Assembly (NCBI GenBank): GCA_003574885.1
Contig: PJFC01000001.1
Coordinates: 310,001 to 374,000 of the forward strand
DNA length: 64,000 nt
Direction: 5' to 3'
Origin: Geobacter sp.
GTDB lineage: Bacteria > Desulfobacterota > Desulfuromonadia > Geobacterales > Geobacteraceae
Below, piece by piece: positions 14,126-45,570 of the stretch. The notes beneath the pieces are model-generated. The model did no database searches, was not told the DNA's origin, and saw only the letters and a program-made list of their open reading frames with translations. A program made the position numbers and the translations under genes. Each line of letters opens with the position of its first letter. Within the stretch, counting starts at the first letter, position 1.

Positions 14126-14244
14126 GAAGCGAGCAATTTTTCGCTCAATCAAGGCTGTCGAGGGATGGCGCGAAGGCGTAGCAGCGCTACGCCGCACAAG
14201 CTATCCCGAAGACTTACGCAGAGTGAGCGGAAAAGGGCCGCTTC
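14126..14244. repeat. Palindrome in flxC/flxB spacer, CTACGCC core (copy C)
   Basis: The left arm starts at 14126 (GAAGCGAGCAATTTTTCGCTCA). Its partner, read on the minus strand from 14244, is GAAGCGGCCCTTTTCCGCTCA. The core GGCGTAGCAGCGCTACGCC is near 14176-14194. It ends one base before the flxC stop codon. Confidence 0.75.
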
Positions 14245-40939: not shown

Positions 40940-42931
40940 TTACCAGACATAATCTCTTGCAATCCCCCGCTTGTCGTGGCCGGCCAGCACATGGAACACC
41001 CGCAGATGTTTGAGCCTCACCGGCGATAGCGACCCCAGAGGAATGTAGACGATCTTCCTGCCGAACCGGGACGCCAGCTGCTTGAAATAGCTCCGTGGGG
41101 GCCGGGCGGCCACGTAGACCACATGCTTTTCCAGAGAGTAGTCCAGGGCCGCCAGAAGCATCACCTCGGACTTGCTCCGGGCGAAGGAGTAGTCGCCCGT
41201 ATGCCAGACATCGAGCATCCTGCGCGGCGGGTAGGCGAGGACAAAGCCGCCGTACTCGCAGCGGGAGATGCCGGGGCCGACGATGTTGTCCTCGGGGGGG
41301 GTGGCGTAAAAAGCCATGTCCGACTCCTGGGCATGCTCCCCCAGCCAGGTCATCAGGTAGGGATACCGTTCGCCGCCCCGGTCCTCGTCGAAGATAACCA
41401 CCACACTCCCCACCCCCCCCTTCACCCGTTCCTGCTGCCGCACGTAGATGCGCCCCTCGTGGATGTTGCGCAGGGTTTCCCGCATGTCGATACCGTCAAG
41501 CATGGAGACGGTAAACGGCTCCACCCGGCACTGCTCTTCCGAAAGCTGCTTCGCACCCTTCTTCTTCAGGAACCGCCCGTAATCTTCGATAATCAGGTCC
41601 TCGGGAGGATAGGAACAGATGGAGGGATCGTCGAACCCCTCCAGCCATTCGCCGGGACGCTTCTCCCGTTTCCGGTTGAGGAAGGCGAGGGGAGAAAGCC
41701 CCCTGCCGTGTCGCCGCTCCTTCGGCCGGAAACGGATACGACGGCTCTGCCGCCAGAGGTCGGCAAGGTCCAGACTGATAGTAGGAAGATCGCTCGTCAC
41801 CTTCTGCCAGGGGTAGAACGTGGCGAGACGGCAGAAGGCATGGGCGAAGTTGTCGTCCACGCAGCCGCGTGCCGCGGAGAGAAGGTGGAAGAGGTCGGGG
41901 AGAAGCAGGCCGTCGAGGAGGGCGCAATTGCGGGCAAATCGGAAAAAAGCGCGCTTCTGCCAGACATGCACCGGCTCGCCGGTCTCCTGCCGGTAGTGGC
42001 GTGCCGCCTCCAGGAAGAGGCGGAGGATGATCCGCTGCCGGTCGGGCATTTCCCCCTGACACCCCACCAGCCTGACGCTCCGGGCGATGGAGAGGGTGAG
42101 CGCTTCCGCCTCGGGAATATCCAGCTTCCCCCCCGCGATCAGCTCCAGGGCGTGGAAACGCTTGCGCAGGGAAGGGCCGTCACCTGGCTGCTCGGGAGGA
42201 AACACTCCCCGGCGCTGCTCATACACCGCATTGACAAAGGGGAATTCACCGAGAATCTCCCGGCAGGAATCGGGGTGGAGATTGAACAGGCGGACGTTGT
42301 CCCGCTTCACTCTCGCCAGTGGCTCACCCTGGGGGTCCGGGAAGAACTCCCTGATGCGGGCAAGGTGGTACATGCCGCAGACCAGCAGCACCCGCTGGTA
42401 CTTGGCGGAAAGCTGCTGCAGCCTGAAGGTCATCCCCCTTTCCCGCCGCAGGTCCTCACTTTCAGGAGGCACAGCGGCAAAAGCGGCGGCGAATTCCCGG
42501 TAGTAGGAAGCCAAGCCGATCCGCTGCACGGCATAGGAATCGGGAACCGGCTCTTCGTGGAGGGGGTAGTCGTCCAGGTCGATGTCGATGAGATGGAGGG
42601 GGATAATACGTTCGAGCGCCTGCCGCGCAGCCTCCACCATTGGGTCGGCCGGCTCGATGAGGAGGTAGACGCTCTGTGAGCCCCCTTCGGTCACCTTTCC
42701 CTTGAGGACGCTAGAGGTGTTCACATCGTAGGTAAGGACCGAGATTTCCGGCAGACGCCGGACACCCCGCAGGAAGGGGGCTTCCAGGGTGGGGGGCAAC
42801 TCGATGGCGATGCAGTCCGGCTGCACCAGCTCCACCGCCTGCCGCACCAAGTGGGCGAACTCCATCCTGTAATGGAGGACGGGGAGGGCATGGACATTGC
42901 CGAATTGTTCAAGATAGAGCCGATGGGGCAT
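40940..42931 (-). CDS. TraB/DUF5682-like protein
   Basis: 663 aa. The first about 250 residues fit the TraB/ChaN-like superfamily: FGNVHALPVLHYR, then QPDCIAIELPPTLEAPFLRG, later VLLVCGMYHLARIREFF. This fold includes DUF5682 proteins, which are often encoded with MoxR ATPases. The C-terminal part is mixed alpha/beta and ends with a domain around VVYVAARPPRSYFKQLA. It lies downstream of a MoxR-type ATPase on the same strand. The start at 42931 has a weak ribosome site. The activity is unknown; some family members are thought to act as peptidases or esterases. Confidence 0.55.
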   Translation of the reverse strand: MPHRLYLEQFGNVHALPVLHYRMEFAHLVRQAVELVQPDCIAIELPPTLEAPFLRGVRRLPEISVLTYDVNTSSVLKGKVTEGGSQSVYLLIEPADPMVEAARQALERIIPLHLIDIDLDDYPLHEEPVPDSYAVQRIGLASYYREFAAAFAAVPPESEDLRRERGMTFRLQQLSAKYQRVLLVCGMYHLARIREFFPDPQGEPLARVKRDNVRLFNLHPDSCREILGEFPFVNAVYEQRRGVFPPEQPGDGPSLRKRFHALELIAGGKLDIPEAEALTLSIARSVRLVGCQGEMPDRQRIILRLFLEAARHYRQETGEPVHVWQKRAFFRFARNCALLDGLLLPDLFHLLSAARGCVDDNFAHAFCRLATFYPWQKVTSDLPTISLDLADLWRQSRRIRFRPKERRHGRGLSPLAFLNRKREKRPGEWLEGFDDPSICSYPPEDLIIEDYGRFLKKKGAKQLSEEQCRVEPFTVSMLDGIDMRETLRNIHEGRIYVRQQERVKGGVGSVVVIFDEDRGGERYPYLMTWLGEHAQESDMAFYATPPEDNIVGPGISRCEYGGFVLAYPPRRMLDVWHTGDYSFARSKSEVMLLAALDYSLEKHVVYVAARPPRSYFKQLASRFGRKIVYIPLGSLSPVRLKHLRVFHVLAGHDKRGIARDYVW

Positions 42932-43000
42932 GGTTGATCATTCGCCTGTAGGGGGAGACCCTGCAGCCGCCCAATTGAGAAAACGGTTGCCTTTTTTCGG

Positions 43001-43199
43001 AAATGTCGATTTTTCGTCAGATCAAGGCTGTCGAGGGATGACGCGGAGGCGTAGTACCCACACATCGGGCATAAACAGCGCTACGCCGCACAATTTCGCT
43101 TGTTAAATTGGACCGCGAAGGCGTCCCGAAGGGAGCGGCCGCAGGCCGAGTCACAAGGAATGCCGAAGACTTACGCAGAGCTGGCGAAAAAGCGGCATT
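43001..43199. repeat. Long palindrome between moxR and the TraB-like gene (copy E)
   Basis: The left arm AATGTCGATTTTTCGTCAG pairs with the minus-strand right arm AATGCCGCTTTTTCGCCAG. Inside is GAGGCGTAGTACCC...GCTACGCCGC with a 28-base insert also found in copy G. It ends one base before the MoxR stop codon. Confidence 0.8.
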
Positions 43200-44018
43200 T
43201 CATTTCAGGTACCGCAGCGCCTCTTCGCCCAAAATCCTCTCCACCGCCAGCGGCAGGAGTTCCTCGGGCACCTGCCCCACCCCCTCCATCATCTTGAGGG
43301 CGTAACGGGCGATGTTGATCCCGTCCCGCACCGAATAGAGCTCGTCGGCAGCATGGGCCCGCTGGAGGAAATCCACCACGTACCGGAGCACCCGGTTTCC
43401 GGCAAAGGGGAGGTTCTCCTTGAGAATCTGCAGCTCCTCGTCCGCCTCGGGGAAGTCGATATAGATCTGGGGCTGGAGACGGGAGTGGATGTATTCCGGT
43501 ACCTCGAAGGTTGAGGAGTCCTCGTTCATGGTGACCACGATGCGGAAATCTGCATTGGCCTGCACCCTCAGGCCAGTGATGATCGACTCCACGTAGCGAC
43601 GGTCGTCGAGAAGCGGCGCCAGGGACGCCCACGCCTTCTCACTCATCCGGTTCCCCTCGTCGAGAATCAGTACCCCTCCCTTGAGCATGGCGGAGACGAG
43701 GGACGAGGCGGCATACTGAATCTTGCCATCCGGCCCGATGACCGGCGTGATGATGAGGTCCTCCGGGCGGGTATCCATGGTAGCCTGGAAGAGGTAGACC
43801 GGCCGCCCCAACCGCTTGGCCGCGGCATAGGCGAGGGTGGTTTTCCCCACTCCCGGCTTGCCGATGAGGCGGGGGTTGAAGGGGATATCCCGCTCGTCGA
43901 TAATCATCCAGGCAGCAAGCAGCTGCTTCAGCAGCTCCTCCTGCCCCACCCACCTGAGCGGCAACTCCACCGGCCGCGCCAGGGAAAGGGCAATACCGTC
44001 TATAACCGTCGTTTCCAT
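43200..44018 (-). CDS. MoxR-type AAA+ ATPase
   Basis: 272 aa. Walker A GKPGVGKTT is at about 53-61 and Walker B VLILDEGNRM near residue 116. MoxR features include the PEDLIITPVIGPDG insertion loop and an IVVTMNEDSS sensor segment. MoxR ATPases are chaperone-like and usually act with a vWA protein, which is absent here. The ATG at 44018 follows GGAG; the frame is open further upstream into a repeat. It is the third gene after hemH. Confidence 0.85.
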   Translation of the reverse strand: METTVIDGIALSLARPVELPLRWVGQEELLKQLLAAWMIIDERDIPFNPRLIGKPGVGKTTLAYAAAKRLGRPVYLFQATMDTRPEDLIITPVIGPDGKIQYAASSLVSAMLKGGVLILDEGNRMSEKAWASLAPLLDDRRYVESIITGLRVQANADFRIVVTMNEDSSTFEVPEYIHSRLQPQIYIDFPEADEELQILKENLPFAGNRVLRYVVDFLQRAHAADELYSVRDGINIARYALKMMEGVGQVPEELLPLAVERILGEEALRYLK

Positions 44019-44070: not shown

Positions 44071-44191
44071 TTCACGCTCAAAAATGCCCAGATGCAAGGC
44101 GCGCGAGGCCGAGGAGTGAGGCGTACACCGGTACGCCGCAGCGACGCAGGCCGAAGCGGAACGCTGCAGATGGGCGTTTTTCAGCGTGAAC
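44071..44191. repeat. Palindrome between the zinc-ribbon gene and moxR (copy F)
   Basis: The left arm TTCACGCTCAAAAATGCCCA (44071-44090) pairs with the minus-strand right arm TTCACGCTGAAAAACGCCCA. The core GGCGTACACCGGTACGCC is near 44123-44140. It ends 3 bases before the zinc-ribbon stop codon. Confidence 0.85.
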
Positions 44192-44194
44192 TTC

Positions 44195-44389
44195 TTAAGT
44201 ATTGTGTTCGTGTAAGTACATCATGGCCAGCCGTGCCCTGTTCTCCAGACATTGGGGACAGAGCTGCCCGGCATCCTTCCAGACCTCCTCCGCCAGCCAT
44301 TCACCCGCCTCCAGAAAAACCGAGTTCTGCTGCTGCGGCTGGAACTCCTTGCGGCAGATCACGCAGACGTTCTTCACCTCTCCCTTCAC
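44195..44389 (-). CDS. Small zinc-ribbon protein (64 aa) overlapping hemH
   Basis: 64 aa with two CXXC pairs (CVIC near residue 9 and CPQC near 46), the pattern of a zinc ribbon, joined by a helical stretch. The start is the GTG at 44389, which overlaps the hemH stop as GTGA; the ribosome site AAGGGGGAG is the end of hemH. This coupling and the clean Cys spacing argue that it is real although short. The function is unknown; regulation of, or metal handling for, hemH is only a guess. Confidence 0.7.
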
Positions 44390-45351
44390 GGCTCCCCCTT
44401 CGCGGCCTCTTTTCGCACCAAGTCCGCAAGGCAGTCGATGAATGCCGGCGAGGTATTGAGGGAGGGGCTGCGCCAGAACTTGGCGTAGCCGAGCTTGAAC
44501 GCCTCCATGGCATACTGGATATCTATCTCGTAGAGCGTCTCGATGTGGTCCGAAACGAAGGAGAGAGGGACGACCAGCAGGTTTTTGCTGCCATGGGCAG
44601 CCAGATGCTCCAGCATCGCCTCGGTGGAGGGCTCCAGCCACTTGACCGGCCCTGCCCGGGACTGGAAGGCCAGGTGATGGGCGACGTTCTCAAACCGTTC
44701 CATGACGAGCCGGACTGTTTCCTCGATATGGGCAAGGTAGGGGTCACCATCGTCGATAAAAGACTGGGGAAGCGAATGGGCGGAAAACAGGATCTCCACG
44801 TCGGCAAGGGGATGGAACTGGTCGATCCCCTCCCGTATCTTTTCCTCCAGGGCATCGATGTAGCGGGGATGGTCGTAGAACCGGTCGATGGTGGAAACCT
44901 GGAACTGTACCCCAGCTTCACCCAGCACGCGCTTCAGCTCATTGAAACTCGAACCGGTAGTGGCCCGGGAGTAGTGTGGGTAGAGGGAGAGGGCGATGAT
45001 CCGGCCGATCCCCTCTTTTTTGATGGCTGCAAGCGCCTCGATGGTGGAGGGGCGCCAATAACGCATGGCCACGAAACAGCGGTACTCCTCTCCCAGCTGC
45101 TCTTCCAGCGCCCGCGCCTGGGCCTCGGTAAGCTCCCGGATGGGAGATTTGCCGCCGATCTGCTCGTAGTAACCTTCTACTTTCGGGGCGCGCCGCCGGG
45201 CGATGATCCGGGCGATGAGCGGCTGGAGAAAAGCCGGGCCAATCTTTATGATGTCCCGGTCGCAGAAGAGATTGGTGAGGAACGGCTTAACGGCATCGAG
45301 GGAATCGGGTCCCCCCATCTGGAGGAGAAGAACTGCGGTTTTCGCGGACAT
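44386..45351 (-). CDS. hemH: Ferrochelatase HemH
   Basis: 321 aa. Ferrochelatase features: [18 protein letters not shown] at the N-terminus, LFSAHSLP with the catalytic His, and [17 protein letters not shown] with the conserved Glu near the C-terminus. It inserts iron into protoporphyrin (or coproporphyrin). The ATG at 45351 follows GAGGTGTCC; an ATG 18 bases upstream is less well placed. It is first in a run hemH, zinc ribbon, moxR, TraB-like gene on the minus strand. Confidence 0.95.
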
Positions 45352-45570
45352 GGACACCTCGTCTGACATCTATGCTGAATCTGGATTTCGAACTTATTTC
45401 ACCGGGAACCTTTTCTTTGCTTTTACCTGCACAGCATACGGAAAGCCCGTAACAGCTTTACTATGCCCTCACTTCACGTCCCGCGCAACCGGAATTTTAT
45501 GTCTGTCGAGCGATGTAAAAAGTAAAGGCAGGGTTTCCCCTGCCATTCCCGGTTATAAATCAGGTAAAAA
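45352..45570. other. Upstream region of hemH
   Basis: No gene seen. It should contain the hemH promoter, but no -35/-10 pair is convincing. A short hairpin GGCAGGG/CCCTGCC lies at about 45530-45545. Confidence 0.3.

Follow-up and report, generated by a model that had tools for sequence, protein, structure and literature searches.

Which partner does a MoxR-type AAA+ ATPase work with when its locus holds no gene for a von Willebrand factor A (vWA) protein? MoxR proteins are described, in passages of PMC3893208, as chaperone-like maturation factors for specific complexes that usually act with a vWA cofactor, and sections of PMC11432383 report the KCR_1472 and GvpN groups of MoxR proteins without vWA association. 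The question is raised by two genes in a stretch of 64,000 nucleotides from Geobacter sp. (GenBank assembly GCA_003574885.1, contig PJFC01000001.1, positions 310,001 to 374,000), termed the window here, in which a MoxR gene is followed by the gene for a 663-amino-acid (aa) protein, termed protein A. An initial annotation, made from the sequence alone, had placed this MoxR ATPase beside a TraB/DUF5682-like protein downstream of hemH and a zinc-ribbon protein, and the open reading frames (ORFs) and the layout were confirmed. The annotation proposed that the locus could be a three-gene MoxR-DUF5682-vWA set reduced to two genes, or a distinct system tied to haem or metal metabolism. Our analysis indicated that the conserved unit is the MoxR-A pair itself, which recurs across several phyla. 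This pair is probably a vWA-independent two-gene MoxR system in which protein A would be the direct partner of the ring, in a logic like that of McrBC.

The arrangement of the two genes was examined in relatives, whose taxa were taken from record titles (numbers with the prefixes G, C and L denote genomes, contigs and loci). The 80 titled loci with protein A belonged to Geobacterales and other deltaproteobacteria, Acidobacteria, Chlamydiae and one Myxococcales metagenome-assembled genome (MAG). MoxR was directly upstream of A, on the same strand and within 700 bp, in 66 of the 80, with a gap of at most 60 bp in 53 of these 66. For the remaining 14 loci, MoxR was farther upstream in five and undetected within the locus in nine. 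Four of these nine stop less than 1 kb upstream (among them L041, with a cut MoxR fragment), L016 also contains a cut MoxR fragment, L027, L073 and L086 have a MoxR elsewhere in the genome, and L031 is the last. MoxR was also directly upstream of A in all 20 chlamydial loci fetched and in 23 of 30 loci from the phylum of the window, Desulfobacterota; six of these 30 had no MoxR in the fetched stretch, five of them stopping less than 1 kb upstream and the sixth being L102, from genome G173. In 23 hand-picked loci the numbers were 15 with MoxR directly upstream, four with MoxR farther away, one without MoxR and three without a strong A. When MoxR was absent from the locus, it was present elsewhere in the genome in all four cases tested (G173, where it was 7 kb upstream, G294, G295 and G296).

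Co-occurrence was then counted genome by genome, with protein A scored at E ≤ 1e-3 followed by removal of weak matches to the N terminus only, and with MoxR scored at E ≤ 1e-30 in Desulfobacterota and 1e-20 in an acidobacterial sample. Among 247 Desulfobacterota genomes, A was detected in 46, or 42 after filtering, and the MoxR subfamily was detected in 42, exactly those with A. The uncounted matches were in G142, G242, G256 and G287 (E 1.6e-5 to 8.1e-4); a partial match in G178 (E 1.6e-17) was counted, and its frame also matched the middle of the A profile and, weakly, its C terminus. The acidobacterial sample (247 genomes, from the phylum of L085, titled Terriglobia) contained a strong A in 12 genomes and MoxR in the same 12, with weak A matches in G311, G354, G367, G475, G525 and G548 not counted as strong. 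Across the 494 sampled genomes of these two phyla, the strong MoxR subfamily never occurred without its partner A. Protein A was present in 30 of 116 genomes of the phylum to which L092 (titled Parachlamydiales) belongs, where the genome-wide search was for A only. Geobacteraceae had A in 47 of 48 genomes at E ≤ 1e-3 and in 37 of 37 good genomes, two of the 47 being partial: G002, a good genome, with a 28-residue fragment, and G043, with residues 379-663. As A and MoxR are kept together even though they lie on separate contigs or kilobases apart in some genomes (e.g., G366 and G173), mere hitch-hiking is unlikely. The distance matrices of A and MoxR were correlated (r of 0.93 over 100 loci), a value that includes species history.

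Selection was assessed from the ratio of nonsynonymous to synonymous substitution rates (dN/dS) relative to three sister loci. The values were 0.072 to 0.081 for A, 0.035 to 0.040 for moxR, 0.034 to 0.072 for hemH and 0.034 to 0.056 for hemE. Selection on the pair looks housekeeping-like, A being the least constrained of the four genes, and both MoxR and A look like real genes.

The 272-aa MoxR protein matched Pfam AAA_5 (E 5.7e-21). It contains both motifs of an AAA_5-type ATPase, a Walker A sequence (GKPGVGKT at aa 53) and a Walker B sequence (LILDE at aa 117), and these were present in 153 and 159 of 159 distinct homologues, respectively. Matches to named subfamilies, seen without a subfamily tree, were weak: the nearest solved relatives were Midasin (2e-26) and NorQ (4e-9), the best NCBIfam model was GvpN, far below its cut-off, and the best PHROG was a 'porphyrin biosynthesis' family (E 2e-27). 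The Walker motifs are common to the MoxR subfamilies MRP, RavA, GvpN, CbbQ/NorQ, YehL and CoxD, whereas the constant partner in this pair is a TIKI-type two-domain protein rather than a vWA protein. As a separate observation, the genome of the window encodes a second MoxR (L247:6766-7803, contig C10; also L144), apparently within what looks like a MoxR-DUF58-transglutaminase operon.

Table 1. Positions of the MoxR-A pair, the parts of protein A and the adjacent upstream genes in the window
Feature	Positions	Strand	Remarks
MoxR-type AAA+ ATPase, 272 aa	43200-44018	-	ATG at 44018; Pfam, Walker motifs
Protein A, 663 aa: TIKI/TraB-like N-terminal domain, helical middle, basic linker, C-terminal domain without matched family	40940-42931	-	
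Protein A residues 1-202, TIKI/TraB/ChaN-type domain	42326-42931	-	H20, E44 and H189 as likely site
Protein A residues 274-372, helical middle domain	41816-42112	-	Predicted secondary structure
Protein A residues 437-663, C-terminal domain	40943-41623	-	Motifs CSYPPED, DGIDxRETxR, FDED, TWxGEHxQESDM, GPGxxR, YGG
Zinc-ribbon-like ORF, 64 aa, CxxC pairs	44195-44389	-	By eye; context, probably outside the module
hemH	44386-45369	-	Context only; name from the initial annotation

A structural model of protein A residues 1-202 had predicted local distance difference test (pLDDT) values of mostly 77 to 97 per ten-residue block, with lower values at residues 71-90 and 121-130. In a VIA-align search with this model, the top match was a Tetrahymena complex IV subunit (Z 10.4, 5.0 Å, 177 residues aligned), followed by ChaN as the second distinct protein (Z 7.6, 5.1 Å, 157 aligned), HopBA1 (7.2, 3.9 Å, 148) and PMT (6.3, 4.1 Å, 141). 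Unrelated rows began at Z 5.5, and the tool's caution level of 8 was exceeded by the top match alone; the fold was assigned because several TIKI members rank together. HopBA1, PMT and ChaN are grouped as TIKI-superfamily structures in passages of PMC6254334, and Tetrahymena complex IV contains a TraB-family subunit according to part of PMC10060162, with which the top-matched chain is presumably identical. In this model, residues 1-202 share the TIKI/TraB/ChaN fold. A Foldseek search with the full-length model of A found nothing at E ≤ 0.001.

Conserved residues of A were counted in 150 distinct sequences, derived from 186 with a score of at least 450 and a length of at least 500 and with divergent forms excluded. 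The combination H20-E44-H189 was present in 139 of the 150, a His...Glu...His pattern resembling the 2His/2Glu site that the relevant passages of PMC6254334 report for RRSP of the TIKI superfamily and give as lacking in PMT; the residues assigned in A are both His and one Glu. Unlike other TIKI/TraB/ChaN/Ere members, this N-terminal domain continues into a helical middle and a C-terminal domain within one protein and is linked to MoxR. Both H20 and H189 were replaced in nine sequences and never singly, E44 being replaced as well in two of these; two further rows had gaps at the first positions. Of the nine, six were acidobacterial proteins forming one group (five by title and one from the sample) and three came from L211, L218 and L222; all retained an eight-residue C-terminal set, with one D-to-E change. 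As the histidines are lost jointly and the C-terminal set stays, the pattern of replacements suggests that the N-terminal site works as a unit and seems dispensable and that the C-terminal domain is not.

The description of A as TraB/DUF5682-like held for its N-terminal half and not for the remainder. In Pfam, the window protein matched DUF5682 below threshold (PF18934; 16.5 bits, where the cut-off is 26) and Mor more weakly still. The DUF5682 model matched 14 of 36 A homologues at E ≤ 0.01 (best 3e-7), and its cut-off was passed at the A gene itself in five genomes of the window's phylum. In these five, the matches covered only the N-terminal 80 to 90 or so profile positions, whereas the true DUF5682 protein of G225 matched positions 5-695. 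The C-terminal ~400 residues of A matched no part of DUF5682. Among the four Yeh proteins of Escherichia coli, the A profile matched YehM over the first ~210 residues (E 9.9e-6, for a set of four), and YehM aa 8-246 aligned with A aa 17-228 (hhalign Prob 43, E 2.4e-4, with a single sequence on one side). The MoxR profile of the pair did not match YehL, the MoxR of the DUF5682 set, and the pair's MoxR aligned poorly with the MoxR of the DUF5682 set in G225. Sequence similarity thus marks the N-terminal domains of A and DUF5682/YehM as related; since the pair's MoxR is unlike YehL and the G225 MoxR, the systems are judged not to be the same. In the YehL-YehM-YehP-YehQ and DUF5682 sets, as in the pair, the gene after MoxR encodes a protein whose N-terminal domain is of this related kind; the pair differs from these sets in being without a vWA or SWIM gene.

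The C-terminal domain (residues ~437-663) matched no family in Pfam, NCBIfam, PHROG or PADLOC at the thresholds used, and a sequence search of solved structures with protein A gave a best E of 0.64, which is chance level. E485, W529, G531, E532, E536, S537 and D538 were invariant in all 150 sequences, and E589 was invariant in the 148 with a residue at that position, from which we infer an acidic/His cluster resembling a metal-dependent catalytic site. Because the C-terminal half had come out poorly in the full-length model, the domain was modelled alone, with a mean pLDDT of 83.5 from a 62-row alignment. Its core runs strand-strand-strand, long strand, helix, strand, helix, strand, helix, short strand, helix. 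In the vWA fold, a helix follows the first strand. The predicted order is weakly RNase H-like and is unlike vWA, in which that helix should be present. In a VIA-align search, 34 of the best 50 rows were RNase H-like by title, at Z values of only 2.0 to 2.9 (top row, 3.9). These rows included RNase H, reverse transcriptase-RNase H, integrase, Argonaute/PIWI, Cas12f and Prp8-RNase H, which are over-represented in the PDB.

No vWA gene was detected in the operon or nearby in the window, in agreement with the initial annotation. Over the whole genome, the VWA_2 and VWA_CoxE models gave no matches (the same models were positive in 12 and 8 of 14 control genomes), and PF00092 gave one match, to a 438-aa ORF on a different contig; by eye, this ORF has a lipoprotein-like N terminus and lies among surface-polysaccharide-type genes. 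A Pfam scan of 120 neighbouring ORFs from 29 loci (drawn from 188 ORFs of 31 loci) had no vWA family among the best 25 of 166 families. A phmmer search with YehP, the G225 vWA protein and the genome's PF00092 protein against 8,249 frames of 263 loci found, at single-sequence sensitivity, only the queries themselves and the YehP/G225 pair. In G225, a genome of the same order, a true DUF5682 gene precedes one for VWA_CoxE, and neither A nor the pair's MoxR is present. No plausible vWA partner was found for the pair. The idea of a reduced three-gene operon was rejected because the two-gene pair alone is conserved across phyla; the lack of vWA genes among the neighbours scanned and a MoxR unlike YehL also speak against it.

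Upstream of the pair, the minus-strand gene order is hemE, hemH, the 64-aa zinc-ribbon-like ORF, the MoxR gene and the A gene, where the names hemE and hemH follow the initial annotation. The 64-aa ORF begins with a GTG that overlaps the hemH stop by four bases, and its CxxC-containing product matched no Pfam model at its cut-off. In the 60 loci with enough sequence, hemH was upstream in 21 and the zinc-ribbon-like ORF in 20. All 21 hemH-linked loci were Geobacterales by title except L013, titled Deltaproteobacteria and 93% identical to the window. Clustering of 1,289 neighbouring ORFs of the titled loci placed A (71 members) and MoxR (53) on top, then a 33-member family found in 21 loci at variable distance, then hemH in 20 loci; no third gene was common to the whole locus set. 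Among the 120 ORFs of the Pfam scan, the SurE family occurred in four and PP-loop in three.

Several side observations concern individual loci. The acidobacterial genome G300 has two copies each of A and MoxR, with the partners adjacent, on contigs C40 and C68 (L179, L196, L142 and L140). The 231-kb plasmid pS13 of Neochlamydia sp. S13 (L224) carries the pair under the names 'AAA family ATPase' and 'hypothetical protein', located after a TtcA-family gene and with surE downstream, one hypothetical gene lying between. In the window, the MoxR-A intergenic distance is 268 bp; a sequence within this gap (42995-43194) is conserved in two sister loci (L014 and L015), whereas L013 has only a short spacer in its place. 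Its 29-base core is repeated at 14150-14178 with 2 mismatches, for which the chance expectation is none, and the sequence may be a repeat of a mobile or dispersed kind. Two facing 19-base inverted arms with 2 mismatches, like a small palindromic element, lie at positions 44071-44190 between the zinc-ribbon-like ORF and moxR.

In the favoured reading, MoxR would form an ATP-driven hexameric ring with A as its direct partner, and the C-terminal domain of A, its most conserved part, would be the working end. The ring would remodel, load or license this domain, as happens with McrC and the nuclease on the McrB ring. McrB-McrC is alike in idea, as an AAA+ ring whose enzyme partner is not a vWA protein (passages of PMC9976466), and is invoked as an analogy only; the same passages liken a vWA finger, proposed to sit in the ring pore of NorQ/NorD, to McrC in McrB. 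The TIKI-type hydrolase-like N-terminal domain would add substrate recognition or a second activity, lost in some lineages, and the task would be of a housekeeping type (maturation, quality control or stress repair) rather than part of an arms race. Some observations weigh against this reading. The presence of A is patchy outside Geobacteraceae (42/247, 12/247 and 30/116 genomes), which argues against a universal housekeeping task. Genome G367 has, on contig C25 (10077-10802), a further divergent MoxR with no A detected beside it. A vWA protein is the usual partner of other MoxR proteins, so an unlinked one could serve, and this genome does encode the lipoprotein-like PF00092 protein. Fold searches with the C-terminal domain gave no clear match, the best Z being the 3.9 noted above and Foldseek reaching best E values of 0.52 (PDB) and 0.22 (viral), with nothing at E ≤ 0.001 in either set; three vWA proteins were among the chance-level viral rows (E about 1), so that the fold may yet be vWA-like.

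Alternatively, A may be a client that is matured by MoxR, for example by metal insertion at its active site, and is then active alone as an enzyme. This alternative, which we consider rather unlikely, shares much with the favoured reading and departs from it only in whether MoxR and A stay together while working, and nothing specific speaks against it. It agrees with the description of MoxR proteins as maturation factors of specific complexes (in part of PMC3893208), the acidic/His cluster of A could bind metal, and the pair is co-resident even when not adjacent.

The initial annotation had suggested that the C-terminal half of A takes the vWA role, in which case a cryptic, diverged vWA domain would plug the MoxR ring and the two genes would make up a MoxR/vWA couple of the ordinary kind. 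This is doubtful. MoxR proteins are generally accompanied by cofactors, of which vWA proteins are typical (same passages of PMC3893208), the last ~80 residues of A form strand-helix-strand units, and the three chance-level viral rows would fit. The DxSxS motif of the metal ion-dependent adhesion site (MIDAS), however, is absent from the window protein and occurs at some place in the sequence in 2 of 36 homologues. Two strands with no helix between them follow the FDED strand, no vWA protein was present by title among the best 50 fold-search rows, and the invariant GEHxQESDM and DGIDxRET set is not a MIDAS set. A cryptic vWA domain is therefore not supported; the C-terminal half may still make a vWA-like contact with the MoxR ring.

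A defence or conflict role is improbable. Passages of PMC7159879 describe MoxR-vWA ternary conflict systems, and a divergent pair in G178 (L202, G178:C12:52000-68000), a distant MoxR with a 788-aa relative of A (hhalign Prob 99.7), lies near TIR, NB-ARC/TIR, RyR-AAA and weakly SLATT-like genes and has the look of a defence island. By eye, the G178 form has the GIDxxxTxR...YVR element and lacks GEHxQESDM; another divergent pair, on contig C149 of G367 and beyond the 12 acidobacterial genomes, has only a loose version of this element. Protein A was also found on two contigs of a viral collection (one scan) and in 1 of 72,556 plasmid records. Against such a role, A was absent from 50,697 phage records and matched nothing in PADLOC or PHROGs, with the MoxR giving only weak AAA matches in PADLOC (best E 7.9e-5), and A is present in every good Geobacteraceae genome, counting the fragment in G002, under strong purifying selection. 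Haem or metal handling, suggested by the ChaN-like N-terminal domain (ChaN is haem-binding by title), the hemH and zinc-ribbon neighbours and a MoxR akin to chelatase-type AAA+ proteins with a 'porphyrin biosynthesis' PHROG as its best match, is the least probable of these explanations and a haem module was rejected, as only a subset of Geobacterales shows the hemH link, TIKI folds accommodate many different ligands, and no haem family was among the best 25 of the 166 neighbour families.

No description of the MoxR-A pair was found in the literature searched, which did not extend to most subscription papers. In the same literature, yehM, yehL and yehP were found only in strain or genome papers, no paper was found for the term DUF5682 or for MoxR, TraB and von Willebrand combined, and MoxR was absent from the best 10 of 16 TIKI/TraB-family matches. 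If the favoured reading is true, the pair would represent a second way to couple MoxR rings to work, compared with the mostly vWA adaptors of other MoxR proteins. It also offers a two-gene system that can be deleted in Geobacterales amenable to culture. The joint loss of the N-terminal histidines with the C-terminal signature kept would then be a natural case of separation of function. Going further, and only tentatively, the pair may define a new class of AAA+-licensed enzyme, in which MoxR rings without vWA would act directly on a partner with two functions, consisting of a TIKI-type hydrolase joined to an undescribed and possibly RNase H-like metal-dependent catalytic domain, as a two-gene unit spread over Desulfobacterota, Acidobacteriota, Chlamydiota and, from one MAG, Myxococcota.

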